Shown here in pieces: positions 5,384 to 40,873 of a DNA stretch of 64,000 nt. The DNA lies in assembly GCF_003205495.1 (NCBI RefSeq), contig NZ_QJRX01000004.1, forward strand, positions 53,164 through 117,163. The letters run 5' to 3'. This DNA comes from Aquipseudomonas alcaligenes. GTDB taxonomy: Bacteria; Pseudomonadota; Gammaproteobacteria; Pseudomonadales; Pseudomonadaceae. The notes under the pieces are model-generated. The model did no database searches. It was not told the DNA's origin and saw only the letters and a program-made list of their open reading frames with translations. Positions within the stretch are counted from its first letter, which is position 1. Each line of letters opens with the position of its first letter. A program made the position numbers and the translations under genes.

Positions 5384-6013
5384 TCAGCCTTCCTTGATCA
5401 CCAGGGCCAGAGCCTGCTCGGCCAGCTCGTCGAGGCTCATCTTGCCGCCCGGGCGGAACCAGGTGGTGGTCCAGCTCAACGCGCCGGTGAGGAAGCGCCG
5501 CAGGACGAAGGGGTCGGACTGGCACAGTCCGGCCGCCTTCGCCTCGCCCAGTACCTCGAGCCAGATCAGCTCATAGCTGTCACGCAGGCTGAGGATGTAG
5601 GCCTGACTTTCCTCGGACAGCGAGCGCCATTCGTAGACCAGCACCCCCATGGCCTCGCCGGTGCCCCCCATGATCGACTGCAGCTCGCAGCGAATCAGCG
5701 CCAGCACCCGCTCACGCGGGCCCTGCGCCTCGGCCAGGGCGGCACGCATCAGCGCGGTGTTGTAGAGGATGGTTTCCTCCATCACCGCCTTGAGGATTTC
5801 GTCCTTGCTCTTGAAGTGGTGGAAGATGCTGCCGGACTGAATACCCACGGCGCTGGCCAGGTCGCGGACCGTGGTGCGCTCGTAGCCCTTGCTGCGGAAC
5901 AGGTGGGCGGCGGTCTGCAGCAGCTTGCCACGCGGGCTTTCCGGATCGGTCAGCTCGCCACGCGCCACCAGCGCCTGCATCACCTTCCGGGCTTTCTGTT
6001 CGTCCAGGCTCAT
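5384..6013 (-). CDS. atuR: TetR family regulator of acyclic terpene utilisation
   Basis: A 209-aa protein with a TetR-type helix-turn-helix at about residues 25-70 (the segment RTTVRDLASAVGIQSGSIFHHF) and a helical ligand-binding C-terminal domain. It is divergent from atuA with 158 bp between the start codons. In P. aeruginosa AtuR represses the atu operon by binding two inverted repeats in this interval. Two matching palindromes are visible here (6073-6084 and 6113-6130). The inducer is presumably a terpenoid acyl-CoA. The ATG at 6013 is preferred over a GTG one codon earlier. Confidence 0.88.
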   Translation of the reverse strand: MSLDEQKARKVMQALVARGELTDPESPRGKLLQTAAHLFRSKGYERTTVRDLASAVGIQSGSIFHHFKSKDEILKAVMEETILYNTALMRAALAEAQGPRERVLALIRCELQSIMGGTGEAMGVLVYEWRSLSEESQAYILSLRDSYELIWLEVLGEAKAAGLCQSDPFVLRRFLTGALSWTTTWFRPGGKMSLDELAEQALALVIKEG

Positions 6014-6072
6014 CACTACCCCACATGAATACTCGTTGCGCCGTGGATGTTAGGGGGCTGCCGGGCAGCCGA

Positions 6073-6084
6073 GCAAGCGCTTGG
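6073..6084. promoter_or_regulatory. Putative AtuR operator 1
   Basis: A perfect 10-bp palindrome CAAGCGCTTG (6074-6083) inside GCAAGCGCTTGG. The same 12-mer occurs on the opposite strand of operator 2. It lies about 60-70 bp upstream of the atuR start, downstream of a plausible leftward -35 (TTGAAA on the minus strand, 6108-6113), where a repressor could autoregulate atuR. Confidence 0.65.
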
Positions 6085-6112
6085 GGTAGAAAGTCGCCAC
6101 AAAGACTTTTCA

Positions 6113-6130
6113 ACCAAGCGCTTGCTTGGT
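6113..6130. promoter_or_regulatory. Putative AtuR operator 2
   Basis: ACCAAGCGCTTGCTTGGT has 7-bp inverted arms ACCAAGC/GCTTGGT around GCTT. It ends 41 bp upstream of the atuA ATG and overlaps likely -35 sequences of both divergent promoters. An almost identical copy (17 of 18 positions) is found at 38184-38201, upstream of the DUF1302 operon. Confidence 0.7.
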
Positions 6131-6171: not shown

Positions 6172-7959
6172 ATGACCCAAACCGTACGCATCGGCTGCGC
6201 CTCCGCCTTCTGGGGCGACACCTCCACTGCCGCCGCCCAGCTGGTTCACGGCGCCGAACTGGACTACCTGGTGTTCGACTACCTCGCCGAAGTGACCATG
6301 TCGATCATGGCCGGCGCGCGCATGAAGAAGCCGGACGAGGGCTATGCCACCGACTTCGTCGAAGTGCTCGCCCCGCTGCTGGGCGAGATCGCGCAGAAGA
6401 AGATCCGCGTGATCAGCAACGCCGGCGGCGTCAACCCCACCTCCTGCGCCAAGGACCTGGCCGCGGCCTGCGAGAAGGCCGGGGTCAACCTGAAGATCGC
6501 CGTGCTGCATGGCGACAACCTGCAACCCAAGCTGGGCGAGCTGGCCAAGGCCGGCACCACCGAAATGTTCACCGGCGCCCCGCTGCCGCCGATGTGCGTG
6601 TCGGTCAATGCCTACCTGGGCGCGCCGGGCATAGTCGCGGCTCTGGAGGCCGGCGCCGATATCGTCATCACTGGCCGCGTGGTCGACAGCGCGGTGGTCA
6701 GCGCCGCGCTGGTGCATGAATTCGACTGGGCCTGGAGCGACTACGACAAGCTGGCCCAGGCCGCTCTGGCGGGTCACATCATCGAATGCGGCGCGCAGTG
6801 CACCGGCGGTAACTTCACCGACTGGCGCGACGTGCCGGACTACGAACATATTGGCTTCCCGATCGTCGAGGTGCAGGCCGACGGCAGCTTCGTGGTTGCC
6901 AAACCCGAAGGCACCGGCGGGCTGATCTCCACCCTGTCGGTCGGCGAGCAGATGCTCTACGAGATCGGCGACCCGCGTGCCTACTACCTGCCCGATGTGG
7001 TCTGCGACTTCACCCAGGTGCAACTGACCCAGGTCGGCGCCAACCGCGTCGAGCTGAAAGGCGCCCGCGGCCTGGCGCCGACCGCCCAGTACAAGGTCAG
7101 CGCCACCCACCCGGACGGCTTCCGCTGCACCGCCAGCTGCCTGCTGGCCGGCATCGATGCCGTGGCCAAGGCCGAGCGCGTCAGCCAGGCCATCATCAAC
7201 AAGACCGAAGAGATGTTCGCCGAGCGCGGCTGGGGGCCGTACAAGGAAGTGTGCATCGAGCTGCTGGGCACCGAGGCCACTTATGGACCTCACGCCCAGA
7301 GGAAGGACACCCGCGAAGTGGTGGTCAAGCTCGGCGTGCGTCACGCCAAGAAGGAAGCACTGATCCTGTTCTCCCGCGAGATCGCCCAGGCGGCCACCGG
7401 CATGGCGCCGGGCCTGACCGGCATCGTCGGCGGGCGCCCCACCGTCTACCCGGTGATCCGCCTGTTCAGCTTCCTGGTCGACAAGAGCGCCTGCGCACTG
7501 GAAGTGGAGATCGACGGCGAGCGCCAGCCGGTCACCCTGCCGGAAGTCGCCGTGTTCGACGCCGGCCAGGTCGCCGACGCAGCCGCCCTGCCCACCCCGG
7601 CCGGCAACGCCGATGCGACCGTGCCACTGGTCAAGCTCGCCGTCGCCCGCTCCGGCGACAAGGGTAACCACAGCAACATCGGCGTGATGGCCAGAAAACC
7701 CGAGTATCTGGCGTGGATCGCGGCTGCGCTCTCCGAAGGCACCGTGGCGCAATGGATGGCGCATGTACTCGACGGCCAGACCGGCAAGGTCAACCGCTGG
7801 CACCTGCCGGGCAGCCACAGCCTGAACTTCCTGCTGGAGAACGCCCTGGGCGGTGGTGGTGTCGCCAGCCTGCGCATCGATCCGCAGGGCAAGGCCTTCG
7901 CCCAGCAGCTGCTGGAATTCCCGGTTCCGGTGCCGCGTGCACTGGCTGACAGCCTGTAA
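6172..7959 (+). CDS. atuA: Acyclic terpene utilisation protein AtuA
   Basis: A 595-aa cytosolic protein of the AtuA (DUF1446) family. It starts [17 protein letters not shown] and has a C-terminal small domain from about residue 480 that carries [14 protein letters not shown]. AtuA is required for citronellol/geraniol catabolism, but its exact reaction is not settled. The ATG at 6172 matches the usual family start. A GTG six codons upstream is less likely. It is the first gene of atuABCDEFG, with the atuR-controlled promoter immediately upstream and atuB 14 bp downstream. Confidence 0.92.
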
Positions 7960-28380: not shown

Positions 28381-28582
28381 GGATTCCTCGTTACTCTCCG
28401 GTGAATAAGAATGTCGCCAAGGCGAGCCTGGCCGGTGATGCTAGTCGGCCGGAACCGACGGTCAGCCCATACGGCGAACGCAAAACCGACCGTATCTTGA
28501 CCGGAACGCCTTTTTCGGTCAACACGAAAAACCGCCCTTTTATCTGGCGCCAGCCCTTGCGCTATCAGGCTTTGAGAAAATT

Positions 28583-28596
28583 CAAACAAACGTTTG
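28583..28596. promoter_or_regulatory. PsrA-type fatty acid-responsive operator
   Basis: CAAAC-N4-GTTTG (28583-28587 and 28592-28596) fits the published Pseudomonas PsrA consensus (G/C)AAAC-N2-4-GTTTG(C/G). It lies just upstream of the etf-QO -10 TATAAT (28620-28625) and overlaps its likely -35 region (TTGTAT), where a TetR-type repressor would block transcription. PsrA releases DNA on binding long-chain fatty acids. Confidence 0.75.
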
Positions 28597-28625
28597 TATT
28601 GGACGCCGAAGGGCCTGTATATATA
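28594..28625 (+). promoter_or_regulatory. etf-QO promoter
   Basis: TATAAT at 28620-28625 within TATATAAT, with weak -35 candidates TTGTAT or TTGGAC 15-20 bp upstream that abut the PsrA operator. The transcript would start about 70 nt before the GTG start codon. Confidence 0.6.
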
Positions 28626-28704
28626 ATGCCCAGCGCGCAGGCCAGAGAAAGCCTAGCCAAGCCAGATCAACAACACCGAAGAAGCCTTGAGTAGGAGATT
28701 CTCT

Positions 28705-30360
28705 GTGGAACGCGAATTTATGGAATTCGACGTCGTCATCGTCGGCGCCGGCCCCTCCGGCCTGTCCGCCGCCTGCCGACTGAAGCAGAAGGCCGCTGAA
28801 GCCGGCAAAGAAATCAGCGTCTGCGTGGTCGAGAAGGGTTCCGAAGTCGGCGCTCACATCCTCTCCGGTGCGGTCTTCGAGCCGCGCGCCCTGAACGAAC
28901 TGTTCCCCAACTGGAAGGAACTGGGCGCCCCGCTGAACACCGAAGTCAAGCGCGACGACATCTACCTGCTGAAGAGCGCCGACAAGGCTGCCAAGGTACC
29001 GAACTTCTTTGTGCCCAAGACCATGCACAACGAAGGCAACTACATCATCTCCCTGGGCAACCTGTGCCGCTGGCTGGCCCAGCAGGCCGAAGCCCTGGGC
29101 GTCGAGATCTACCCGGGCTTCGCCGCCCAGGAAGCCCTGATCGACGAGAACGGCGTGGTGCGCGGCATCATCACCGGCGACCTCGGTGTGGACCGCGAAG
29201 GCCACCCGAAGGAAGGTTACTACACCCCGGGCATGGAACTGCGCGGCAAGTACACCCTGTTCGCCGAAGGCTGCCGTGGCCACATCGGCAAGCAGCTGAT
29301 CAAGAAGTTCAACCTCGACTCCGAAGCCGACGCCCAGCACTACGGCATCGGCATCAAGGAAATCTGGGACATCGACCCGGCCAAGCACGAGCAGGGCCTG
29401 GTGGTGCACACCGCCGGCTGGCCGCTGTCCGACGAGAACCCGGGCGGCTCCTTCCTCTATCACCTGGAAAACAACCAGGTGGTGGTCGGCCTGATTGTCG
29501 ACCTGTCCTACTCCAACCCCTTCCTGTCGCCGTTCGACGAGTTCCAGCGCTACAAGCATCACCCGGTGATCGCCAAGTACCTGGAAGGCGGCAAGCGTGT
29601 GGCCTACGGTGCTCGCGCCATCTGCAAGGGCGGCCTGAACTCGCTGCCGAAGATGGTCTTCCCGGGCGGCGCCCTGATCGGCTGCGACCTCGGCACCCTG
29701 AACTTCGCCAAGATCAAGGGCAGCCACACCGCCATGAAGTCCGGCATGCTGGCCGCCGAGGCCGTGGCCGACGTGCTGCTGGCCGACGGCCAGGGCGGCG
29801 ACCTGCTCAATGGCTATGTCGACGACTTCAAGGCCAGCTGGCTGTACGACGAGCTGTTCCGCAGCCGCAACTTCGGTGCAGCCATCCACAAGTTCGGCGC
29901 CATCGCCGGCGGTGCGTTCAACTTCATCGACCAGAACATCTTCGGCGGTAAGATTCCGGTCACCCTGCACGACAACAAGCCGGACTACGCCTGCCTCAAG
30001 CCGGCGGCCGAGTGCCAGCGCATCGAATACCCGAAACCGGACGGCAAGCTGAGCTTCGACAAACTCTCCTCGGTGTTCCTCTCCAACACCAACCACGAGG
30101 AAGAGCAGCCCTGCCACCTGAAGCTGACCGACGCCAGCATCCCGCTGTCCGTCAACCTGCCGAAGTTCGACGAGCCGGCACAGCGCTACTGCCCGGCCGG
30201 CGTGTACGAAGTGGTGACTCAGGAAGACGGCGAGAAGCGCTTCCAGATCAACGCGCAGAACTGCGTACACTGCAAGACCTGCGATATCAAGGACCCGTCC
30301 CAGAACATCACCTGGGTGGCTCCGGAAGGCACCGGCGGCCCGAACTACCCCAACATGTAA
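28705..30360 (+). CDS. Electron transfer flavoprotein-ubiquinone oxidoreductase
   Basis: A 551-aa inner-membrane-associated flavoprotein that passes electrons from reduced ETF to ubiquinone. The FAD-binding VVIVGAGPSGLSAACRLKQ is at the N-terminus, GCRGHIGKQL lies in the middle, and a C-terminal 4Fe-4S cluster domain carries NCVHCKTCDIKDPSQNI. The GTG at 28705 is chosen because TAGGAG lies 7 nt upstream and the family starts at this point. An upstream in-frame TTG is unlikely. It is divergent from etfBA and probably derepressed by PsrA ligands. A strong terminator follows. Confidence 0.95.
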   Translation: MEREFMEFDVVIVGAGPSGLSAACRLKQKAAEAGKEISVCVVEKGSEVGAHILSGAVFEPRALNELFPNWKELGAPLNTEVKRDDIYLLKSADKAAKVPNFFVPKTMHNEGNYIISLGNLCRWLAQQAEALGVEIYPGFAAQEALIDENGVVRGIITGDLGVDREGHPKEGYYTPGMELRGKYTLFAEGCRGHIGKQLIKKFNLDSEADAQHYGIGIKEIWDIDPAKHEQGLVVHTAGWPLSDENPGGSFLYHLENNQVVVGLIVDLSYSNPFLSPFDEFQRYKHHPVIAKYLEGGKRVAYGARAICKGGLNSLPKMVFPGGALIGCDLGTLNFAKIKGSHTAMKSGMLAAEAVADVLLADGQGGDLLNGYVDDFKASWLYDELFRSRNFGAAIHKFGAIAGGAFNFIDQNIFGGKIPVTLHDNKPDYACLKPAAECQRIEYPKPDGKLSFDKLSSVFLSNTNHEEEQPCHLKLTDASIPLSVNLPKFDEPAQRYCPAGVYEVVTQEDGEKRFQINAQNCVHCKTCDIKDPSQNITWVAPEGTGGPNYPNM

Positions 30361-30374
30361 TTCGAGCCCCATTG

Positions 30375-30819: not shown

Positions 30820-33207
30820 TCAGTGGGCGAACAGCGAACCACCCTGCTTGCCGGCCAGCTTCTCCGGCTTGATCAGGAAGCGCGCCAGAGCCGGCAGCAG
30901 CCACAGCGCACCGAACATGTTCCACAGCAGCATGAAGGTCAGCATCAGCCCCATGTCAGCCTGGAACTTGATCGCCGAGAATATCCAGGTGACCACGCCG
31001 ATGGCCAGGCACAGACCGGTGAACAGTACGGCCTTACCGGTGGAGCGCAGGGTCTGGTAGTAGGCCTCCTGCAGCGGCAGGCCGGCGCGCAGGAAGCTTT
31101 CCATGCGGCTGTAGATGTAGATGCCGTAGTCCACGCCGATACCCACGCCCAGCGCGATCACCGGCAGGGTCGCCACCTTCACGCCGATACCCAGCCAGGC
31201 CATCAGGGCGTTGCCGAGGATGGAGGTGAGGATCAGCGGCAGGATGATGCACAGCATCGCACCGAAGGAGCGGAAGGTGATCAGGCACATCAGCGCCACG
31301 CAGATGTACACCAGCACCAGGATCTTCAGCTCGGAAGTGGCGATCACCTCGTTGGTGGCCGCCTCGATGCCGGCATTACCGGCCGCCAGGATGAACTCCA
31401 GGCCTTCCTTGTTGTTCTCCGCGGCGAACTCCTGCACCACCGCGACGGCGCGCTTCAGGGTCGCGGCCTTGTGGTCGTTGAGGAACACCAGTACCGGCGC
31501 CAGCGAGCAGTCGGCGTTGTACAGGCCGTCGGCACGGGCGATGGAGTTGTTGAGGATGTCCGGGTTGCGCGACAGGGTCTCCCACTTGAGGCTGCCCTCG
31601 TTCATCCCCTTGATCACCTGCTTGGACACGCTGACCATGGAAATGGCCGATTGCACGCCCTCGGTGTTCTCCAGGCGCCACATCAGCTGATCCATCGGCG
31701 CCAGGGTCTCGTAGGTCGAGCAACCCTCGTTCGGCGTCTTGACCATCACCACCAGCACGTCGGAGCTGGTCGAGTAGTTGCTGATGATGAAATCGTTGTC
31801 CTTGTTGTAGCGCGAGTCCGGACGCAGTTCCGGCGCGCCCTGGTCGAGGTCGCCGATCTGCAGGTGCTCCTTCTGGTACCAGAAGGCCGCCACGCCGGCC
31901 GACAGGGCAATGACCACGGAGATCGGTGCCACCACCGGGTGGGCGAAGTTGGACAGCAGGCGCCAGAACGGCTGCTCGCGACCGGCCTCGCGCTTGCTGC
32001 GCTCGACGGCCTTCTTGCTGATGCCGATATAGGAAATCGCCACCGGCAGCAGGATCAGGTTGGTGAACACGATCACCGCCACACCAATGGAGGCGCCGAT
32101 GGCCAGCTCGCGGATCACGCCGATGTCGATCACCAGCAGGGTGATGAAGCCGACTGCGTCCACCAGGATGGCGATCATGCCCGGCAGGAACAGCTGGCGG
32201 AAGGTCCGCCGGGCCGCGGTCAGGGCATTGTCGGCGTCGCTCGACTGCAGGGCGATACCGTTGATCTTCTGCACCCCGTGGGAGATGCCGATGGCGAAGA
32301 TCAGGAAGGGCACCAGCATCGAGTAGGGATCGAGACCGAAGCCGGCCAGGTTCATCAGGCCCAGCTGCCAGACCACCGCGATCAGGGTGGTGGAGACCAC
32401 CGAGATGGTCGAGCGGATGCACCAGCTGAACCAGTACAGTAGCACCAGGGTAATGGCCAGGGCGATACCGAAGAAGGCCACCACCATGATCAGGCCGTCG
32501 ATCAGGTCACCGACCTTCTTGGCGAAACCGACGATGTGCACCTGCACATTGGGGTTCTGCGCCTGGTACTTCTCGCGGATTTTCTCTTCCAGCTCATGGG
32601 AGAACTGGCGATAGTCCAGCTTGAGCAGCTTGCTCTGATCGTTCGGATCCGGGTACTGCTCGAGCAGGGGTACATCGACGATGCTCGACTTGAAGTTGTT
32701 GGCCACCAGGCGACCGACCTGGCCGGACTTGAGGACGTTGCTGCGCAGCTCCTGCAGGCTCTGCTCGGAACCATCGTAGGTCTGCGGGATCACCTCGCCA
32801 CCGTCGAAACCTTCCTCGGTCACTTCGGTCCAGCGCACGGCCGGGCTCCACAGCGACTTCAGGCCGGAACGGTCGACACCAGCGATGTAGAACACCTCGT
32901 CATGGATCTGGCGCAGGGTCTCCATGTATTCCTTGGAGAAGATGTCGCCATCCTTCGCCTCCACGGAGATACGCACGGTGTTGCCCAGGTTGGCCAGGTC
33001 GTTGCGGTGCTCGAGCATCTTCTGGATGAAGGGATGCTCCAGCGGAATCATCTTCTCGAAACTGGTCGAGGGACGAATATGCGAGGCCTGCCACAGCAGC
33101 AGCAGGGTGATCAGCGCGCAGAGGGCGATGACGATCGGCCGGTTGTTGAAAATCAGGCGCTCGAGGAAAGTCGCCTTGTCCTGGTGATGGCTGCTCATGG
33201 AACTCAT
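30820..33207 (-). CDS. MMPL/RND superfamily transporter
   Basis: A 795-aa inner-membrane protein with the RND repeat layout. TM1 is at about 27-45, a large periplasmic loop (46-235) follows, then five TMs (240-400). A second TM (about 425-443), a second loop (to about 635) and five C-terminal TMs complete it. Conserved segments PFLIFAIGISHGVQKING and IALGVGIGVDYGIYIYSRM are the TM4/TM10-type cores, the latter with a GxxxDY motif. Relatives of this size export hydrophobic molecules such as hopanoids and lipids. It is last of four co-directional genes and follows the YCF48-like gene by 18 bp. No membrane fusion protein or TolC is nearby. Confidence 0.88.
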   Translation of the reverse strand: MSSMSSHHQDKATFLERLIFNNRPIVIALCALITLLLLWQASHIRPSTSFEKMIPLEHPFIQKMLEHRNDLANLGNTVRISVEAKDGDIFSKEYMETLRQIHDEVFYIAGVDRSGLKSLWSPAVRWTEVTEEGFDGGEVIPQTYDGSEQSLQELRSNVLKSGQVGRLVANNFKSSIVDVPLLEQYPDPNDQSKLLKLDYRQFSHELEEKIREKYQAQNPNVQVHIVGFAKKVGDLIDGLIMVVAFFGIALAITLVLLYWFSWCIRSTISVVSTTLIAVVWQLGLMNLAGFGLDPYSMLVPFLIFAIGISHGVQKINGIALQSSDADNALTAARRTFRQLFLPGMIAILVDAVGFITLLVIDIGVIRELAIGASIGVAVIVFTNLILLPVAISYIGISKKAVERSKREAGREQPFWRLLSNFAHPVVAPISVVIALSAGVAAFWYQKEHLQIGDLDQGAPELRPDSRYNKDNDFIISNYSTSSDVLVVMVKTPNEGCSTYETLAPMDQLMWRLENTEGVQSAISMVSVSKQVIKGMNEGSLKWETLSRNPDILNNSIARADGLYNADCSLAPVLVFLNDHKAATLKRAVAVVQEFAAENNKEGLEFILAAGNAGIEAATNEVIATSELKILVLVYICVALMCLITFRSFGAMLCIILPLILTSILGNALMAWLGIGVKVATLPVIALGVGIGVDYGIYIYSRMESFLRAGLPLQEAYYQTLRSTGKAVLFTGLCLAIGVVTWIFSAIKFQADMGLMLTFMLLWNMFGALWLLPALARFLIKPEKLAGKQGGSLFAH

Positions 33208-33225: not shown

Positions 33226-34305
33226 TTATTGTTTTTGGCCTGGCTCGGCGCCAGTCGGAGTAGCGATCTGTACGCCGCCCTGCCCCACCAGGACCAGGTT
33301 GCCGGCTGCATCGGCAGCAGCCGAGGCCAGCGAGGCGCGATCGGCCCGGTTGATCACGGTGAAGGTGCGGCCGGAATCCTTGCTGGTCAGCACGCTGCCG
33401 CCGTGGCCGACGATGACCACGTCGCCATTCTTCAGCAGGCTGCCGCCGGCCAGGCCGAACTCCAGCGGACCACTCTCGGAGAGCAGCTGGACCTGTTGCC
33501 AGGTGGCGCCGAAATCGGTGGAGCGATAGAGATTGCCGCGCAGACCGAAAGCCAGCAGGGTGTTGCTGCTGGCAGTGCCGAGGGCACCGAACAGGGTACC
33601 CTCATAGGGGCCCTGGACCCTCTCCCAGGTCTGTCCCCAATCGGCGGAGCGGAACATGCTGCCCGCCTCGCCGACGACGAACAGGCCGGCATCCTTGACC
33701 TCGGCGATGCCGTTGAGGTGATAGCCGTCCTCGTTGTCCAGGCGGTCGCTGACGTCGGCCCAGGTCTTGCCACCGTCGGTGGTTTCCAACAGCGCGCCAT
33801 AGGCACCTACGGCATAGCCGGTGCTGGTATCGCGGAACCAGATGTCGAGCAGGGGAGCTTCGCGTTCGAGGTCCTCGAACTGCAGCTTCCAGTTGGCGCC
33901 GCCGTCTTCGCTGACGAGAATCTGCGAATCATGGCCGACGGCCCAGCCGTGCTTGTCATCGACGAAGTACAGGGCAGTCAGCAGCTGGCGGGTCGGCACA
34001 CGGGCCTGAACCCAGTTCTTGCCGGCATCTTCGGAGAACAGGATGTGACCACGATCACCCACGGCGACCAGACGCTTGCCGGCATGAGCGACATCCAGCA
34101 ACAGGCTGGACACGGCCTTGGGCGACTCGATGGAAAGGACATTGGCGGATTCCGCAGCCTGTACAGGCATGGGTGCGGCAAAAGCCAGAATGGAACAGAC
34201 GCCGAGCAGGGACAGCGCCTTCGCCAGCGGCGAGTATTGACGGGCCGGGGCCTGCATGGAATTCAGGCAACCGGAGCGGGTGCGCCGCATGACGGGCTCA
34301 CGCAT
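33226..34305 (-). CDS. YCF48-like (BNR repeat) beta-propeller, periplasmic
   Basis: A 359-aa protein with an N-terminal signal peptide (cleavage after MPVQAA at about 51). Repeated propeller blades contain the Asp-box/BNR pattern SxDxGxxW: SEDAGKNWVQ, SEDGGANWKL, TTDGGKTWAD, SADWGQTWER, STDFGATWQQ and SKDSGRTFTV. That gives six to seven blades. The fold matches the HCF136/YCF48 group, used for assembly or partner binding rather than glycosidase activity. GGGGG lies 7 nt before the ATG. It is preceded by a 187-bp gap with a hairpin and a possible promoter, and followed 18 bp later by the MMPL transporter. Confidence 0.85.
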   Translation of the reverse strand: MREPVMRRTRSGCLNSMQAPARQYSPLAKALSLLGVCSILAFAAPMPVQAAESANVLSIESPKAVSSLLLDVAHAGKRLVAVGDRGHILFSEDAGKNWVQARVPTRQLLTALYFVDDKHGWAVGHDSQILVSEDGGANWKLQFEDLEREAPLLDIWFRDTSTGYAVGAYGALLETTDGGKTWADVSDRLDNEDGYHLNGIAEVKDAGLFVVGEAGSMFRSADWGQTWERVQGPYEGTLFGALGTASSNTLLAFGLRGNLYRSTDFGATWQQVQLLSESGPLEFGLAGGSLLKNGDVVIVGHGGSVLTSKDSGRTFTVINRADRASLASAAADAAGNLVLVGQGGVQIATPTGAEPGQKQ

Positions 34306-34492: not shown

Positions 34493-35863
34493 TCAGCGGG
34501 TACCGCGGCGGCGCAGGGCGGACGGCGTGAAGTAGCTGTCCTCCGGAATCGCCTTGGTGAAGTTCACCGTGGCCGGTTCCTCGCTGTCCAGGTTCTGCAC
34601 GTGGTAGCGGCGACTCTGCAGGTCATGGAAAGCCTCCATGGCCGACCAGGTGGTGGGCAGGTCGTAGTAGTTCTTCAGGTAGGCGACGGACACCCGCCAC
34701 AGCTCGCCGCGGGTGTCGTACTGATCCACCACGGCAGCCTGCCAGCTGTCCTCGTCGAGAAACAGGGTGCGCTTGCCATATATGTGACGCGCCCCCGGCT
34801 TGAGCGTGCCCTCCACCACCCAGACGCGGTGCAGTTCGTTGCGGGTCAGCGCCGGGTTGACGTGGCCAACCTGCAGCACATCCTCGTACTTCACCCCGGC
34901 TGCGGCGATACGGTAGTTGTTGTAGGGGATATACAGCTCCTTCTTACCCAGCAGCTTCCACTCGTAGCGGTCGGGTGCACCGTTGAACATGTCGGTATCG
35001 TCGGCGGTACGCAAACCTTCGGAAGCGGCGATCGGCGTGTCGTAGGCCAGGTTCGGCGCACGCCGCACGCGACGTTGCCCGGCCGCATAGGCCCAGGCCT
35101 GGCGCGGCTCCTTCACCTGATCCAGAGTCTCGTGTACCAGTGCCGCACCACCAGCCAGACGCGCCGGGCTCTTGGTGAAGTTCAGGTAGTAGAACAGGAT
35201 GTTGTTGAGGTCGGCATAGCTGCCCTGCGGGTCGTAGTAGCGGAACAGCGCCTCGGCCTCGGACACCACCGGCGAGAAAGCGCCGTTGCGCTGCACCGCC
35301 ACCTCGGCGGAGCGGCGCGTGATATAGGTACCGCGGTAGCGCACGATGTGGTTCCACAGTGCCTCCACGCCGCTCTGCGGAATCGGGAACGGAATGCCAC
35401 CGTAGGCGTCGGCGAAGCCATTGCCGCCCTCGACCAGCTTGGCGCTGGTGGCGTTCCTGATGCTGTTGTCATACACCCACTGCGGTGCCGAGCCGGAGCG
35501 ACGGCTCTGATAGACCGGCATCTGGAAGCTGTCCGGGTAGGCGTTGAACAGGGCGATCTGCCCTGCGCTCAGCTTGTCCTTGTACTGTTCCAGGTTGGCC
35601 TTGGTGATGGTGAACAGCGGCTTGTCGTCCGGGAAGGGATCGACATGGTGCTGGCCGCCACCCTTGAATCCAGCCGGTGCCTGGGTGATGCCACCGCTCC
35701 AGGCCGGGATGCTGCCATCGGCATTGCCGGCCTTCTCCGCGCCGAATGGGGTCAGCGTGGCGCCCAACTTGGCCGCCTCCTGCGGCGAGACAGCGGCCAG
35801 CGCGCTGCCGGTGGAAAGCGCGAGGGCGACTGCGGCGCCCATCAGCGAGTGTTTCATCAGCAT
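34493..35863 (-). CDS. DUF1329 family periplasmic/outer-membrane-associated protein
   Basis: A 456-aa protein with a Sec signal peptide (MLMKHSLMGAAVALALSTGSALAA). DUF1329 spans nearly the whole mature part, with GAEKAGNADGSIPAWSGG near the N-terminus and RRTLFLDEDSWQ-type strands (here GKRTLFLDEDSWQAAVVDQYD) near the C-terminus. The family is predicted to adopt a LolB/LppX-like lipid-binding half-barrel and nearly always neighbours DUF1302. GGAG lies 9 nt before this ATG, whereas the longer reading frame upstream lacks a signal. It follows DUF1302 by 58 bp. Confidence 0.9.
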   Translation of the reverse strand: MLMKHSLMGAAVALALSTGSALAAVSPQEAAKLGATLTPFGAEKAGNADGSIPAWSGGITQAPAGFKGGGQHHVDPFPDDKPLFTITKANLEQYKDKLSAGQIALFNAYPDSFQMPVYQSRRSGSAPQWVYDNSIRNATSAKLVEGGNGFADAYGGIPFPIPQSGVEALWNHIVRYRGTYITRRSAEVAVQRNGAFSPVVSEAEALFRYYDPQGSYADLNNILFYYLNFTKSPARLAGGAALVHETLDQVKEPRQAWAYAAGQRRVRRAPNLAYDTPIAASEGLRTADDTDMFNGAPDRYEWKLLGKKELYIPYNNYRIAAAGVKYEDVLQVGHVNPALTRNELHRVWVVEGTLKPGARHIYGKRTLFLDEDSWQAAVVDQYDTRGELWRVSVAYLKNYYDLPTTWSAMEAFHDLQSRRYHVQNLDSEEPATVNFTKAIPEDSYFTPSALRRRGTR

Positions 35864-35921
35864 GGTGATTCTCCGTACTAGCGAGCCGGGCGGCCTGGCC
35901 GCCCGGCCCTGGGATTCATGT

Positions 35922-37874
35922 TCAGAAGGAGTACTTGAGGTTGACGCCGAGGTTGTCGCGATCGCGGCCACTGTTGTTCTGGCCGGCGCCGTAGTACTCG
36001 GTGTACTGCACCTCGGCCTCCAGGCTGTTCAGGTAGCTGGCACGCAGGCCGACCGAATAGGCCATGGCACCCTCGACGAAGTTGCCGGTCTGATGCGAGT
36101 TGCCCTGGAAGTTGTGCTTGAACACGGCGAAGGGCGACAGGTTGACCCCGGCATACACGTCGTTCCAGGTACCGGACAGGGCCAGGGTGTAGCCGTAGGC
36201 GTCGCGATCCAGCTGGTCCTCATCGTCGTAGCCGGACACATAGGCGCCATTGGGACGACCGGCGAAGCCGCGCTCGCTGCCATCGTAGGCGGTGTAGCTC
36301 AGGTCGCTGGCACGGGAGTGCTCGGAGGCCAGTTCGGCCACGCCCATCAGCGAATCGAAGCTGATCGCCGGCCCGAAGTTGTAGATGGTGCCGATGGACA
36401 GGTTGAACGCCTCGATACGCTCGTAGTTGTGAATTTGGCCATCCAGCGCGGTATCCCTGCCCGCAATGTTGGCCAAACCGCCACTCCCTAGCAGCAGAGA
36501 CTGACCGAGCAGATCCCCCAGAAGGTCATTGGTCGCACTGATGCCCACCGGCAGGTTAGGCCGGTAAGCCAGCTCGCCGAACACCGAGGCCTCACCAATA
36601 TTGGTATTGAAACTCAGGCCATACATGCGGATGTCTTCGACGTATTCGCGCCGCCCTACAACCTGATTGGCGATATCGATGGCAGCCAGGCCATTGGCAC
36701 CAGCCAGAGCCTGCGCAGCGGCTGCGTTGCCCAGTGAGGCCGCCAGCTGCAGGTTGGCACAACTGGTTGCTCCCAGCGTGTTACAAAGTACATCCGGGTT
36801 GAAACCCGCATAGGCATCGTTAACGCTCGCCGATATCTGCGGCTCCTTCGCGTGGTAATTGACGAAGTAGAAGCCGAACTCGGTGAGGTTCAGCTCCTCC
36901 GCCACGTAACGCAGCGCAAAACCATACTGCCCATCATTCTTGGCATTCAGGTCGCTCGATATGTTGGCAACCTTGATCGTCCCCGTCGCAGGGTCGTAAT
37001 AATCACTGCCGCTCAGCTGATTAACTGCCACCAGACCGTTATAAGCACCAGCCAACAGTGGATTGGCAAAGGCATCGTTCACTGTATAAGCCGTATTGCC
37101 GCCATCGGCGAACAGATCGGTCTCGGAGAAGAAGGTACCGGCCGGGTCGATCGCCGACTCCTTCCAGTTCCACTGGTAGAAACCTTCCAGCGACAGATTG
37201 TCGGTCAGGCCGATGTTGAAATTGAAGGCCTCCACCGGCACCAGTACTTCCTTCAGTTCGGAGCCCGGCAGACGGAACTTGGCGGCGTCGATCGGGTTGG
37301 TGGTGTTGATGCCACCACGATAGAAGATGCCCTCGCCCCAGTTGAACACCTGGCGGCCGACCTTGACGGTCAGCGGCATGCTGCCGACATCCCAGTTGCC
37401 ATAGACATAGGCGTCGAGAATCTCGGCACTGTGGCCGGCGCTATCGCGGGTCTCGTCGGTGAAATGGTTGTTGTTCGGGTAGCCCTGGCTCGGCCGGAAG
37501 TCGTCGTTGTCGTTGCGTTTGTCCATGATCTGGGTGTCATAGAAGGCGGTGCCACGCACGAACAGGCCGTAGTTCTGGTAGTTGGCCTCCAGGTCGGAGG
37601 TGATCTTGAACACCTCGGAGACCAGGCCGGTATCGAAGTTGCGGTTGCCATCGTTGCCGTTGGTGTCGTCGTTGGTCTTGTCCCGCCCCTGCACCCGGTA
37701 CAGCTGGCCATAGGACAGGGTGGTATCCAGCGAGCCGGTCACCTCGCCCTCGACGAAGCTGAACTCAACGGCGCCGGCCGGGATAGCCACCAGCAATGGA
37801 ATAAGCCCGACAAGGGCAAAACCCGCCCTGACGGGGGCGAGACACAGGGACGACTTGCGCAAAGGGATGGCCAT
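35922..37874 (-). CDS. DUF1302 family outer-membrane beta-barrel protein
   Basis: A 650-aa protein with a signal peptide (cleavage after IPAGA at about 31). The mature chain alternates aromatic-tipped amphipathic strands and polar loops and ends in a C-terminal Phe (VNLKYSF), the usual outer-membrane insertion signal. DUF1302 proteins are FadL-like or porin-like barrels associated with hydrophobic substrates. The second ATG is preferred because GGAG lies 6 nt before it, four codons after the first ATG. It is first in the operon with DUF1329, YCF48-like and MMPL genes. A 341-bp upstream region holds two palindromes that resemble TetR operators. Confidence 0.9.
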   Translation of the reverse strand: MAIPLRKSSLCLAPVRAGFALVGLIPLLVAIPAGAVEFSFVEGEVTGSLDTTLSYGQLYRVQGRDKTNDDTNGNDGNRNFDTGLVSEVFKITSDLEANYQNYGLFVRGTAFYDTQIMDKRNDNDDFRPSQGYPNNNHFTDETRDSAGHSAEILDAYVYGNWDVGSMPLTVKVGRQVFNWGEGIFYRGGINTTNPIDAAKFRLPGSELKEVLVPVEAFNFNIGLTDNLSLEGFYQWNWKESAIDPAGTFFSETDLFADGGNTAYTVNDAFANPLLAGAYNGLVAVNQLSGSDYYDPATGTIKVANISSDLNAKNDGQYGFALRYVAEELNLTEFGFYFVNYHAKEPQISASVNDAYAGFNPDVLCNTLGATSCANLQLAASLGNAAAAQALAGANGLAAIDIANQVVGRREYVEDIRMYGLSFNTNIGEASVFGELAYRPNLPVGISATNDLLGDLLGQSLLLGSGGLANIAGRDTALDGQIHNYERIEAFNLSIGTIYNFGPAISFDSLMGVAELASEHSRASDLSYTAYDGSERGFAGRPNGAYVSGYDDEDQLDRDAYGYTLALSGTWNDVYAGVNLSPFAVFKHNFQGNSHQTGNFVEGAMAYSVGLRASYLNSLEAEVQYTEYYGAGQNNSGRDRDNLGVNLKYSF

Positions 37875-37963
37875 AGGCAGCTCCATGGATCGATTGTTCT
37901 TGTTATGTCCGTCGTGCCGGGCATACCCGGACTCGCGACCGGGCGGGACTATTCAAGATCGAT

Positions 37964-37983
37964 ACCAGGAAAGCGCTTTTGGT
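37964..37983. promoter_or_regulatory. Palindromic operator-like site upstream of DUF1302
   Basis: ACCAGGAAAGCGCTTTTGGT contains a perfect 10-bp palindrome AAAGCGCTTT with outer ACCA/TGGT arms. It lies about 90 bp before the DUF1302 start. It resembles the atuR operators in its ACCA...AGCGCTT...TGGT frame but is 2 bp longer. No good -35/-10 is obvious nearby. Confidence 0.45.
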
Positions 37984-38174
37984 CCTGTTTTTACTGCGAC
38001 TCAGGCGGCAGTACATATATTGATCTGCACCGCGCAAGGATGTCGCAATTTGTCTGCCGAGTGGCGCGCTTCAGCCTTGTGAAAATAGCCCACAAAAGAA
38101 GCGCAAAGCCTCTGCCACGGGGCTTTGGCCGCCAGCGAAAAACTGATCAGGCAGAAAGGAAACAGGGAGTAACA

Positions 38175-38210
38175 GCAGGCGTTACCGAGCGCTTGCTTGG
38201 TAACGCCTGC
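38175..38210. other. 12-bp perfect inverted repeat containing an AtuR-like operator
   Basis: GCAGGCGTTACC (38175-38186) and GGTAACGCCTGC (38199-38210) are exact inverted repeats. The internal 18-mer ACCGAGCGCTTGCTTGGT (38184-38201) differs from atuR-atuA operator 2 (6113-6130) at one base. It starts 5 bp after the pepN stop and lies about 310 bp before the DUF1302 start. It has no T-run, so a purely terminator role is not obvious. Confidence 0.65.
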
Positions 38211-38215
38211 CGGGT

Positions 38216-40873
38216 TCAGGCCAGACTCTTGCTGACCACCTCGAACACGTCGCTAGACAGCTCGCCGCTGGCCAGGATGCGCTCCAGCTCGCCGCGCATC
38301 AGCGCCTGGCGCGAAGCGCCGTACTTGCGCCAGCGGGTCAGCGGGCCGAGCTGGCGCGAAGCGATCTGCGGGTTGGTGGCGTTGAGGCTGATCACCTGGT
38401 CGGCCAGGAAGCGATAGCCACTGCCGTCGGCCGCATGGAAGTTGACCAGGTTCTGCCCGGCGAAAGCACCGATCAGTGCGCGCACCTTGTTCGGGTTCTT
38501 CATCGTGAAGGCCGGGTGCTGCATCAGCGCCTGCACGCGGGCCAGACCGCCCGGCAGGGTGCAGGCGGCCTGCACGCTGAACCACTGATCCATGACCAGC
38601 GCATTGTCCTTGAAGTGCTCGGCGAAGGCCTTGAGCGCCTCGGCCTTCTCCGTCTCGAAGGGCGAGTTGACCAGCACGGCCAGCGCGGCCAGGCGCTCGG
38701 TCATGTTATCGCACACCTCGTACTGCTCCAGGGTGGCGGCGAGCACCTCCGGCTTGCCGGTGAGCATCAGGTAGGACAGCGCGATGTTCTGCAGGCTGCG
38801 GCGGGCGAAGTGGGCCGACTCGGCCACATAGGGCGTGTTGCGCGAGGCCTCGCGGTTGGCCTGGTAGCGTGCCCACAGCGGCTCGAACAGCGCCTCGGCC
38901 AGCTGCTGGCGGGCGAACTCGCGGGCGGCGTGGATGGCCTCGACGTCGGCTACATCACTGATCTCGGTCAGGTAGCCCTCGCCCGGCAGCGACAGCATCT
39001 CGGCGACCATGGCCTGATCCAGGCTGTCGTTCTCCAGCACGCTGCGCAGGGCGGTGACCAGGCGTTGATCGAGCACCAGCGGCTCGCCGCGCTGATGCTG
39101 GCCGATCAGCTCCTGCAGCACCTGCACGGCCAGCTGCTGGCCGGCCTCCCAGCGATTAAACCCATCACTATCGTGCTGCATGAGGAACATCAGCTGGTCG
39201 CGGCTGTAGGGGAAGCTCAGCTTGACCGGCGCGCTGAAGCCGCGCAGCAGCGAGGGCAGCGGCTTCTCGGCGATGTTGACGAAGGTGAAGGCCTGCTCGG
39301 CCTGGGTCACCTGCAGCACGCGGGAGCGACCGACCGGCTTGTCCTCGCCGACCAGCTGCAGCGGCAGTTCGCGGCCCTGGGCATCCAGCAGCGCCAGCTC
39401 GACAGGGATGACGAAGGGCAGCTTCTCGGCCTGACCCGGGGTGGCCGGGCAGCTCTGGCGCAGCTGCAGGCGGTAGGTGTTGGCCGCCGCGTCGTAGCTC
39501 TCGCTGACGTCCAGGCGCGGCGTGCCGGCCTGGCTGTACCAGCGCTTGAACTGGGTCAGGTCGATGCCACTGGCGTCCTCCATGGCCTTGACGAAGTCAT
39601 CGCAGGTCACGGCCTGGCCGTCGTGGCGGGCGAAGTACAGGTCCGAGCCTTTGCGGAACAGCTCGGCGCCGAGCAGGGTGTGGATCATGCGCAGCACTTC
39701 CGAGCCCTTCTCGTAGACGGTCAGGGTGTAGAAGTTGGAGATCTCGATGAAGCTGTCCGGGCGCACCGGGTGGGCCATCGGGCCGGCATCCTCGGCGAAC
39801 TGGTGGGTGCGCAGGTAGGCCACGTCCTCGATGCGCTTGACCGTGCGCGAGTTCATATCGGCCGAGAACTCGGCGTCACGAAACACGGTGAAGCCTTCCT
39901 TGAGCGACAGCTGGAACCAGTCGCGGCAGGTCACGCGGTTGCCCGACCAGTTGTGGAAGTACTCGTGGGCCACCACCGCCTCGACGCGCTGGTGGGCGGC
40001 GTCGGTGGCGGTCTCGGCCTTGGCCAGCACGCAGCTGGAGTTGAAGATGTTGAGGCCCTTGTTCTCCATGGCGCCCATGTTGAAATCGTTGACCGCAACG
40101 ATCATGAAGATGTCCAGGTCGTACTCGCGCCCGTACACCTCCTCGTCCCACTTCATCGACTTCTTCAGGCTGTCCATGGCGTGCTGCACCTTGTCGATGT
40201 TTTCCGGCTCGACGTAGATGCGCAGGGTGACTTCGCGCTCGCTCATGGTGGTGAAGCGGTCTTCCACGCACCAGAGGTCGCCGGCGACCAGGGCGAACAG
40301 GTAGGCCGGTTTCTTGAACGGGTCCTCCCAGGTCGCCCAATGGCGGCCGCCCTCCTCGCTGCCGCTGGCAATCGGGTTGCCGTTGGACAGCAGCACCGGA
40401 TAGCGATGCTGCTCGGCGCTGAGTGTGGTGGTGAAGGTGCTCATCACGTCCGGGCGGTCGAGGTAGTAGGTGATCTTGCGGAAGCCCTCGGCCTCGCACT
40501 GGGTGCAGAACATGCCGCTGGACTTGTACAGGCCTTCCAGCGCGGTGTTGCTTTCCGGGTGGATGCGCACGCTGCTGTCGATGACGAACCGTTCCTGCGT
40601 CGGCTGCAGGGTCAGGTGACTGTCGGTCAGCTGGTAGTCGGCAGCACCGAGCACGCGGTCGTCCAGCTTCAGCTCCAGCAGCTCCAGCTGCTGGCCGTCC
40701 AGCACCAGCGGCGGCAAGCCGGCGCCGGCCTCGGGGTTGCGGCGCATCACCAGCTGGGCGTGCACCAGGGTGTGGTCCTCGAACAGCTCGAAGGTCAGGT
40801 GAGTCTCGTCGATCAGGTAGTCGGGAACCTGGTAGTCCTTGAGGTAGATCATCTTCGGCTGTTCGGTACGCAT
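38216..40873 (-). CDS. pepN: Aminopeptidase N
   Basis: An 885-aa M1-family zinc metallopeptidase that removes N-terminal residues from peptides in the cytosol. The substrate-anchoring motif MGAMENKG, the zinc motif HEYFHNW and the third-ligand Glu downstream within the LKEG segment are all visible. The C-terminal half is the helical DUF3458 region. Length matches proteobacterial PepN (about 870-890). It ends 5 bp before the inverted repeat at 38175-38210 and starts 13 bp after the DUF2797 gene. Confidence 0.96.
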   Translation of the reverse strand: MRTEQPKMIYLKDYQVPDYLIDETHLTFELFEDHTLVHAQLVMRRNPEAGAGLPPLVLDGQQLELLELKLDDRVLGAADYQLTDSHLTLQPTQERFVIDSSVRIHPESNTALEGLYKSSGMFCTQCEAEGFRKITYYLDRPDVMSTFTTTLSAEQHRYPVLLSNGNPIASGSEEGGRHWATWEDPFKKPAYLFALVAGDLWCVEDRFTTMSEREVTLRIYVEPENIDKVQHAMDSLKKSMKWDEEVYGREYDLDIFMIVAVNDFNMGAMENKGLNIFNSSCVLAKAETATDAAHQRVEAVVAHEYFHNWSGNRVTCRDWFQLSLKEGFTVFRDAEFSADMNSRTVKRIEDVAYLRTHQFAEDAGPMAHPVRPDSFIEISNFYTLTVYEKGSEVLRMIHTLLGAELFRKGSDLYFARHDGQAVTCDDFVKAMEDASGIDLTQFKRWYSQAGTPRLDVSESYDAAANTYRLQLRQSCPATPGQAEKLPFVIPVELALLDAQGRELPLQLVGEDKPVGRSRVLQVTQAEQAFTFVNIAEKPLPSLLRGFSAPVKLSFPYSRDQLMFLMQHDSDGFNRWEAGQQLAVQVLQELIGQHQRGEPLVLDQRLVTALRSVLENDSLDQAMVAEMLSLPGEGYLTEISDVADVEAIHAAREFARQQLAEALFEPLWARYQANREASRNTPYVAESAHFARRSLQNIALSYLMLTGKPEVLAATLEQYEVCDNMTERLAALAVLVNSPFETEKAEALKAFAEHFKDNALVMDQWFSVQAACTLPGGLARVQALMQHPAFTMKNPNKVRALIGAFAGQNLVNFHAADGSGYRFLADQVISLNATNPQIASRQLGPLTRWRKYGASRQALMRGELERILASGELSSDVFEVVSKSLA

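Follow-up and report, generated by a model that had tools for sequence, protein, structure and literature searches.

The window analysed here, a 64,000-nucleotide stretch of the Aquipseudomonas alcaligenes genome, carries the divergent atuR-atuA pair and, downstream of pepN, a single run of genes encoding DUF1302, DUF1329, BNR/YCF48 and HAE3/MMPL proteins, as in AmeABCD-type transporters (judged by profile matches, with HAE3 below cut-off). Between pepN and DUF1302 lies an AtuR-type operator enclosed in an inverted repeat (Table 1). Behind the MMPL gene there is also a minus-strand ORF of 596 amino acids (28582-30372) that has no Pfam match and is possibly not a gene.

Table 1. Features of the atuR-atuA and DUF1302 loci, in window coordinates
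Feature	Position	Strand	Basis
atuR, TetR-family repressor	5384..6016	-	PF00440 + PF17932; single copy in genome
AtuR operator 1, atuR-atuA (AGCAAGCGCTTGG exact at 6072-6084)	6068..6085	-	motif match
AtuR operator 2, atuR-atuA (CCAAGCGCTTGCT exact at 6114-6126)	6113..6130	+	motif match
atuA	6172..7959	+	PF07287
MMPL/RND transporter	30820..33207	-	PF03176; HAE3 model TIGR00921 match below cut-off
YCF48/BNR-repeat protein	33226..34305	-	PF14870
DUF1329 protein (longest ORF; true start probably further in)	34493..35971	-	PF07044
DUF1302 protein, predicted outer-membrane part	35922..37886	-	PF06980
AACAAGAACAA, presumed Crc/Hfq-type catabolite motif	37894..37904	-	motif
Predicted sigma54-like element TGGTAT-N5-TTGAAT, 81 nt before DUF1302	37951..37967	-	clade conservation; putative promoter
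GTTAC subsite 3	38169..38173	-	motif; triad a putative enhancer
36-bp inverted repeat enclosing operator	38175..38210	.	repeat scan, RNA fold
GTAAC subsite 2, 2 bp common to operator	38181..38185	-	motif
AtuR-type operator ACCGAGCGCTTGCTTGGT before DUF1302 operon	38184..38201	.	motif match and clade conservation; AtuR binding inferred
GTTAC subsite 1, 2 bp common to operator	38200..38204	-	motif
pepN, upstream neighbour of DUF1302 operon	38216..40873	-	Peptidase M1 domains

The initial annotation had reported a near-exact copy of the atuR-atuA site in front of the transport operon, and this is confirmed: ACCGAGCGCTTGCTTGGT at 38184-38201 and ACCAAGCGCTTGCTTGGT at 6113-6130 are identical at 17 of 18 positions. 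The match is also, as had been claimed, beyond chance, since the window holds three matches with at most three mismatches (38184-38201 and 6113-6130 on the plus strand, and 6068-6085 on the minus strand with the full three) against 0.09 expected, and none of 100 shuffled windows reached three. The 13-bp half-operators published for AtuR, where the EMSA was done with the 86% similar RdmA (PMC9973270), occur exactly twice at atuR-atuA (6072-6084 and 6114-6126), and the DUF1302 box is identical to the published half-operator at 12 of 13 positions. The two half-operators at 6072-6126 are 29 bp apart, as compared with 40 or 42 in the published study for other Pseudomonas (PMC9973270), a difference of about one helical turn.

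The box forms the core of the inverted repeat, whose 16-nt arms are 94% complementary around a 4-nt loop, and which folds as RNA with z-scores of -5.3 (plus strand) and -4.9 (minus strand). It lies 297 nt from the DUF1302 start at 37886, the minus-strand pepN gene stopping at 38216, which agrees with the earlier description of a site within a 36-bp hairpin right after pepN and about 310 bp from DUF1302. The hairpin named in the accompanying caveat is present, and the repeat goes with the DUF1302 operon and not with pepN. On the DUF1302 strand the outer repeat reads GTTAC-N14-GTAAC-N7-GTTAC, that is, three subsites in F-R-F order spaced 19 and 12 bp apart, and among 30 pepN loci (from a search matching 58 of 59 genomes) this triad lies behind pepN wherever DUF1302 is in the fetched flank (13/13) and nowhere else (0/17; Fisher 8e-9). 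An intrinsic terminator of pepN was rejected as the main reading because a scan found no terminator at the inverted repeat and because the triad is absent behind the 17 pepN genes without DUF1302 in the fetched flank. In the window's own genome the triad pattern has one match and the reversed pattern also one, which makes that count weak evidence.

Between box and gene, the predicted sigma54-like element is 216 nt from the operator, and a simple scan of 37850-38260 found no sigma70-type promoter. A TGGCAG-N5-TTGC stretch at -231, considered as a sigma54 site, occurs in the window alone and is not conserved in the clade described below; we take it as chance. Repression through a loop to a second AtuR box was likewise set aside, there being, at up to two mismatches, no other box in the 600 bp around DUF1302 of the window and, in relatives, matches only at the end of pepN.

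How far is this arrangement shared? Among the best 80 of 197 DUF1302 loci, 13 (L038-L048, L051, and L065) have the box, with at most one mismatch, within 600 bp before DUF1302. A rapidly built PepN tree with 72 rows groups these 13 and the window in one clade of 14 with a support of 91 (99 in a 13-row subset), where P. alcaligenes RU38D, at 97% over PepN, stands closest to the window. All 14 clade members have the box before DUF1302, and in 13 it occupies the same nested position; in the remaining one, L048, the nested box is gone and AGCAAGCGCTTGCTTGGT is found at -201 instead. In the window, L044, and L046 the core of the box runs the opposite way from that in the other ten nested loci, with the outer repeat unchanged, as if the inner stem-loop had been flipped, an inversion that a dimer site would tolerate. 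In addition, AACAAGAA precedes the DUF1302 start in 14/14 clade loci and in some outside the clade; like AACAAGAACAA in the window, it is presumably a Crc/Hfq-type catabolite motif.

A search for AtuR in 44 genomes with DUF1302 loci found it in 41, comprising all 13 with the box and 28 without it, and the three genomes without AtuR have no box. The initial annotation had named in advance, as an outcome that would speak against it, absence of the motif in relatives that keep both loci, and outside the clade this is what we found, in 28 of 41 genomes. Its proposal that AtuR controls the DUF1302 operon is thus probably right in one clade, where the motif scan before DUF1302 orthologues finds the site kept in 14 of 14 loci, and fails as a general statement. 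Because so many AtuR genomes with the operon have no box, its distribution marks the DUF1302 box as a lineage-specific gain.

Within the 13 nested loci the inner 14 nt have a mean pairwise identity of 0.945 when orientation is ignored (0.81 otherwise). The flanks agree less well, at 0.37 in the 10 nt on the left, 0.59 in the 7 nt on the right, and 0.50 over the 10 nt that follow the third subsite. When pepN divergence is matched at 0.86-0.90, the inner part has an identity of 0.946 within the clade (40 pairs) against 0.632 outside it (54 pairs), and at 0.90-1.00 it is 0.942 (36 pairs) against 0.835 (93 pairs), these being equal-length pairs that are not independent of one another.

The triad was also followed in 65 DUF1302 loci outside the clade (a count that leaves out the truncated L087 and L116): 54 have both the triad and a sigma54 consensus, 10 have neither, and one has the triad only, although 7 of the 10 with neither have no pepN upstream, so that the association partly contrasts paralogues. 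The consensus is canonical outside the clade. Inside it the element is GG-N10-GA/GT, with equal internal spacing and a -12 box without GC (14/14); as TGGTAT-N5-TTG(A/T)AT (TGGTAC in L043) it is kept in all 14 members, 67-104 bp before the start, and its distance to the box is 204-216 bp in 12 of the 13 nested loci and 258 bp in L051.

An enhancer that acts by looping needs its spacing to be in helical turns. In 67 loci, 13 of them in the clade and 54 outside it, the distances between subsite 3 and the promoter element cluster near 195, 206, 218, 228, 240, 249, and 260 nt, with the clade falling on the same comb as the other loci. The best period in a scan of 6-20 was 10.8 (R 0.70) for all loci and 10.9 (R 0.66) for 45 representatives, and none of 5000 random sets was as strong in the 10.2-11.0 band, which was also the case with distinct values only (24 overall, 19 outside the clade). 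For the same representatives, the control distances from sigma54 element to ATG (R 0.46) and from triad to ATG (R 0.28) gave lower, nonzero values.

The protein expected to read the box is AtuR. It is single-copy in this genome, the 11 other TetR-like matches being 23-43% identical over 51-154 residues. Across 119 Pseudomonadaceae genomes a degenerate form of the motif occurs in 50 (as against 6 for the reversed pattern) and AtuR in 46, with both in 43, AtuR only in three (G019, G071, and G079), the motif only in seven (G035, G064, G082, G096, G098, G105, and G112), and neither in 66 (Fisher 2e-21). Five of the seven motif-only genomes have a listed match, in all five with other spacers. Elsewhere, in G154 (C1:216736-216987), a second, partial AtuR-like stretch corresponds to the C-terminal 84 residues, is 65% identical, and lies about 1.3 kb from the full-length atuR. 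The association between motif and AtuR is partly the atu promoter itself, and we therefore examined sites away from atu.

Besides the two loci of the window, its genome carries an exact site at C14 and one with a single mismatch at C16. In relatives, 60 non-atu loci were picked among the matches listed and their genes placed by tblastn: behind the box stands an acyl-CoA dehydrogenase gene in 29, an FAA1-type acyl-CoA synthetase gene in 24, DUF1302 in three, acsA in three, and a sensor kinase gene in one. The exact DUF1302 18-mer is present at 28 of the 29 dehydrogenase loci, with the edge of the box 30-36 bp from the start; the G that was scored as a mismatch in the DUF1302 18-mer is thus the normal form at a conserved acyl-CoA dehydrogenase promoter of Pseudomonadaceae. 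The enzyme encoded there shares 38% identity with the dehydrogenase of the atu cluster in the window. At the synthetase loci the box lies 25-58 bp before the start. We infer that the FAA1-type synthetase is FadD4 because the PA7 copy, 77.6% identical to that of our genome, begins with VTANRLP, the residues that the PAO1 fadD4 primer encodes; growth of a fadD4 mutant on acyclic terpenes is impaired (PMC8637051). Thus the reading of the DUF1302 box by AtuR, though predicted from sequence, is well supported by the single copy of the repressor, its co-occurrence with the motif, the conservation of the box at DUF1302 within the clade, and the recurrence of its 18-mer at a second conserved promoter.

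Some of these boxes can be placed individually. Predicted AtuR boxes in the window's genome precede the acyl-CoA dehydrogenase gene and the fadD4 orthologue (L003 1501-1518 and L004 1501-1518) and are kept in relatives. A weaker box with two mismatches (L005 1501-1518) lies near the start of a gene taken for plsB from its translation, and in one relative ACCAAGC-N4-GCTTGGT lies some 45 bp upstream of a gene for a 7TMR-DISM sensor histidine kinase (L163, around 2001-2018).

The acetate--CoA ligase gene acsA was followed in 30 genomes, 26 with AtuR and 4 without. ACCAAGC-N4-GCTTGGT, with at most one half-site mismatch, is found at -61 to -66 of acsA in 15 of the 26 AtuR genomes, including our own (L328; at -63 with one mismatch; the others are L317-L322, L325, L327, L329-L331, L336, L337, and L343). 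Four of the remaining promoters of AtuR genomes have two or three mismatches at -62 or -63, and seven have at least four. None of the four genomes without AtuR has the box, a contrast that with so few controls is not significant (Fisher 0.10), and the fixed position of the acsA box is better evidence than this contrast. One acsA locus, L192, is identical in sequence to L315. Since the Atu pathway releases acetate (PMC4097962), acsA is a predicted AtuR target that could recover it.

Here, we propose, with somewhat better than even confidence, that AtuR binds the nested operator and keeps the DUF1302 operon off by occupying the spacer of a sigma54 enhancer until acyclic-terpene intermediates release it. 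The GTTAC triad would be the enhancer of a sigma54 activator. AtuR would sit on the box between subsites 1 and 2, with 2 bp common to each, and compete there with the enhancer protein, hardly touching the polymerase at a promoter 216 bp away. On release of AtuR the DUF1302-DUF1329-YCF48-MMPL operon would come on and, with carbon limitation supplying the activator, the cell would produce the transporter if it has terpenes but lacks a preferred carbon source. We read occlusion of the enhancer, and not cover of the promoter, from the position of the box in the triad spacer and at such a distance from the promoter element. A point against this model is that the box lies 297 nt from the start, as compared with 25-58 bp at the other targets. 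Against it also stand the 28 of 41 AtuR genomes whose DUF1302 operon has no box, the -12 box without GC in the clade, a triad order unlike that of the crcZ array, and the absence of PA3079-PA3082 from the main text of the CbrAB/Crc study described below.

A rival to this model is ordinary repression by AtuR, in which a sigma70-type promoter near the box, and not the sigma54 enhancer, drives the operon in the clade. The boxes near the start of the acyl-CoA dehydrogenase, fadD4, and acsA genes favour it, as does the decay of the canonical sigma54 consensus in exactly the clade that has the box. Yet the scan between the genes revealed no such promoter, and TGGTAT-N5-TTG is kept in all 14 clade members in helical phase with the triad. 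The helical phasing slightly raised our estimate for the wider reading given below and lowered that for repression near the promoter, which we hold to be unlikely.

Two further explanations do away with AtuR altogether, and we hold both to be improbable. In one, the repeat is a structural hairpin, either the pepN terminator or an RNA stem-loop, and its likeness to the AtuR operator a product of chance and common descent. The strong fold, the A and T runs that flank many of the repeats outside the clade, where inner arms change and yet stay complementary, and the common descent of the box loci all suit this explanation. It does not explain the absence of a terminator by scan or why the repeat tracks DUF1302 and not pepN, and pairing alone accounts neither for the near-identity of loop and inner arms at matched pepN divergence nor for the moved box of L048. 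In the other, a different TetR-family protein with the same operator reads the DUF1302 box. Operators of this kind are common in the TetR family, 11 further candidates are encoded in the genome, and seven genomes carry the degenerate motif without AtuR; set against this, those candidates are distant from AtuR, the five listed matches in AtuR-less genomes have other spacers, and all 13 genomes that have the box before DUF1302 also encode AtuR.

In a wider sense, AtuR may act throughout the Pseudomonadaceae on a regulon of atu, acyl-CoA dehydrogenase, fadD4, and acsA genes, with one clade having put an AmeABCD-type transporter under an operator within a sigma54 enhancer and so made a TetR protein an enhancer-occluding switch, a reading that we would place marginally below an even chance. 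If true, the poorly understood DUF1302/DUF1329/YCF48/MMPL family would be tied to a defined substrate class and a repressor, making its cargo testable. The range of AtuR, so far a single divergent promoter, would grow to a predicted regulon that makes biochemical sense, with fadD4 linked to growth on terpenes and acsA to a possible recovery of acetate. The loci would also form a natural series of promoters in which a phased sigma54 enhancer is kept and acquires an internal repressor box, which in one case has moved.

Which activator might bind the triad? In P. aeruginosa, we take PA3079-PA3082 to be this DUF1302 operon. The main text of a study of CbrAB and Crc in that species names none of these genes (PMC3480352). 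CbrB is a candidate, since TGTTAC/GTAACA are CbrB subsites and since CbrB acts with sigma-N and IHF to drive P. putida PP2810-13, an operon made up of a transporter gene, a BNR gene, and two genes of unknown function (PMC6296734). PP2810-13 resembles our operon in having TGTTAC/GTAACA subsites upstream of a sigma54 promoter and an operon with transporter and BNR genes, and differs in its three subsites being F1-R1-R2, in its gene order, and in that the accessible part of the paper describes no repressor box (PMC6296734). The crcZ array of the window's genome (TGTTAC, GTAACA, GTAAC) runs F-R-R in 22-bp steps, unlike the DUF1302 triad with its F-R-F order and spacings of 19 and 12, and given this difference in geometry we do not claim CbrB as a proven enhancer protein.

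A search of the accessible literature found no link between AtuR and DUF1302, acsA, or a broader set of targets, in agreement with the initial annotation, which knew of no such link. DUF1302 and DUF1329 are also mentioned in PMC10866462. The closest known operator is that of atuR-atuA (rdmA-dmgA) in the same genome, which shares the half-operator (12/13) and the repressor family but has two boxes, whereas DUF1302, a different operon, has a single, distant one set in a GTTAC triad. A link of this transporter family to terpenes is known already, and in the accessible literature it does not run through AtuR: AmeABCD of Castellaniella defragrans, the closest four-gene system to have been studied, has monoterpene genes as neighbours, and mutants that lack it tolerate monoterpenes less well, which its authors read as export (PMC6394551). 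The dedicated substrate route suggested in the initial annotation is accordingly no more than a possibility. AmeABCD stands on a betaproteobacterial genomic island, affects growth on unfunctionalised monoterpenes, and is not described as AtuR-controlled in the available text; nevertheless, it is linked to monoterpenes and has the same DUF1302, DUF1329, COG4447/BNR-like, and HAE3 RND components in identical gene order (PMC6394551).
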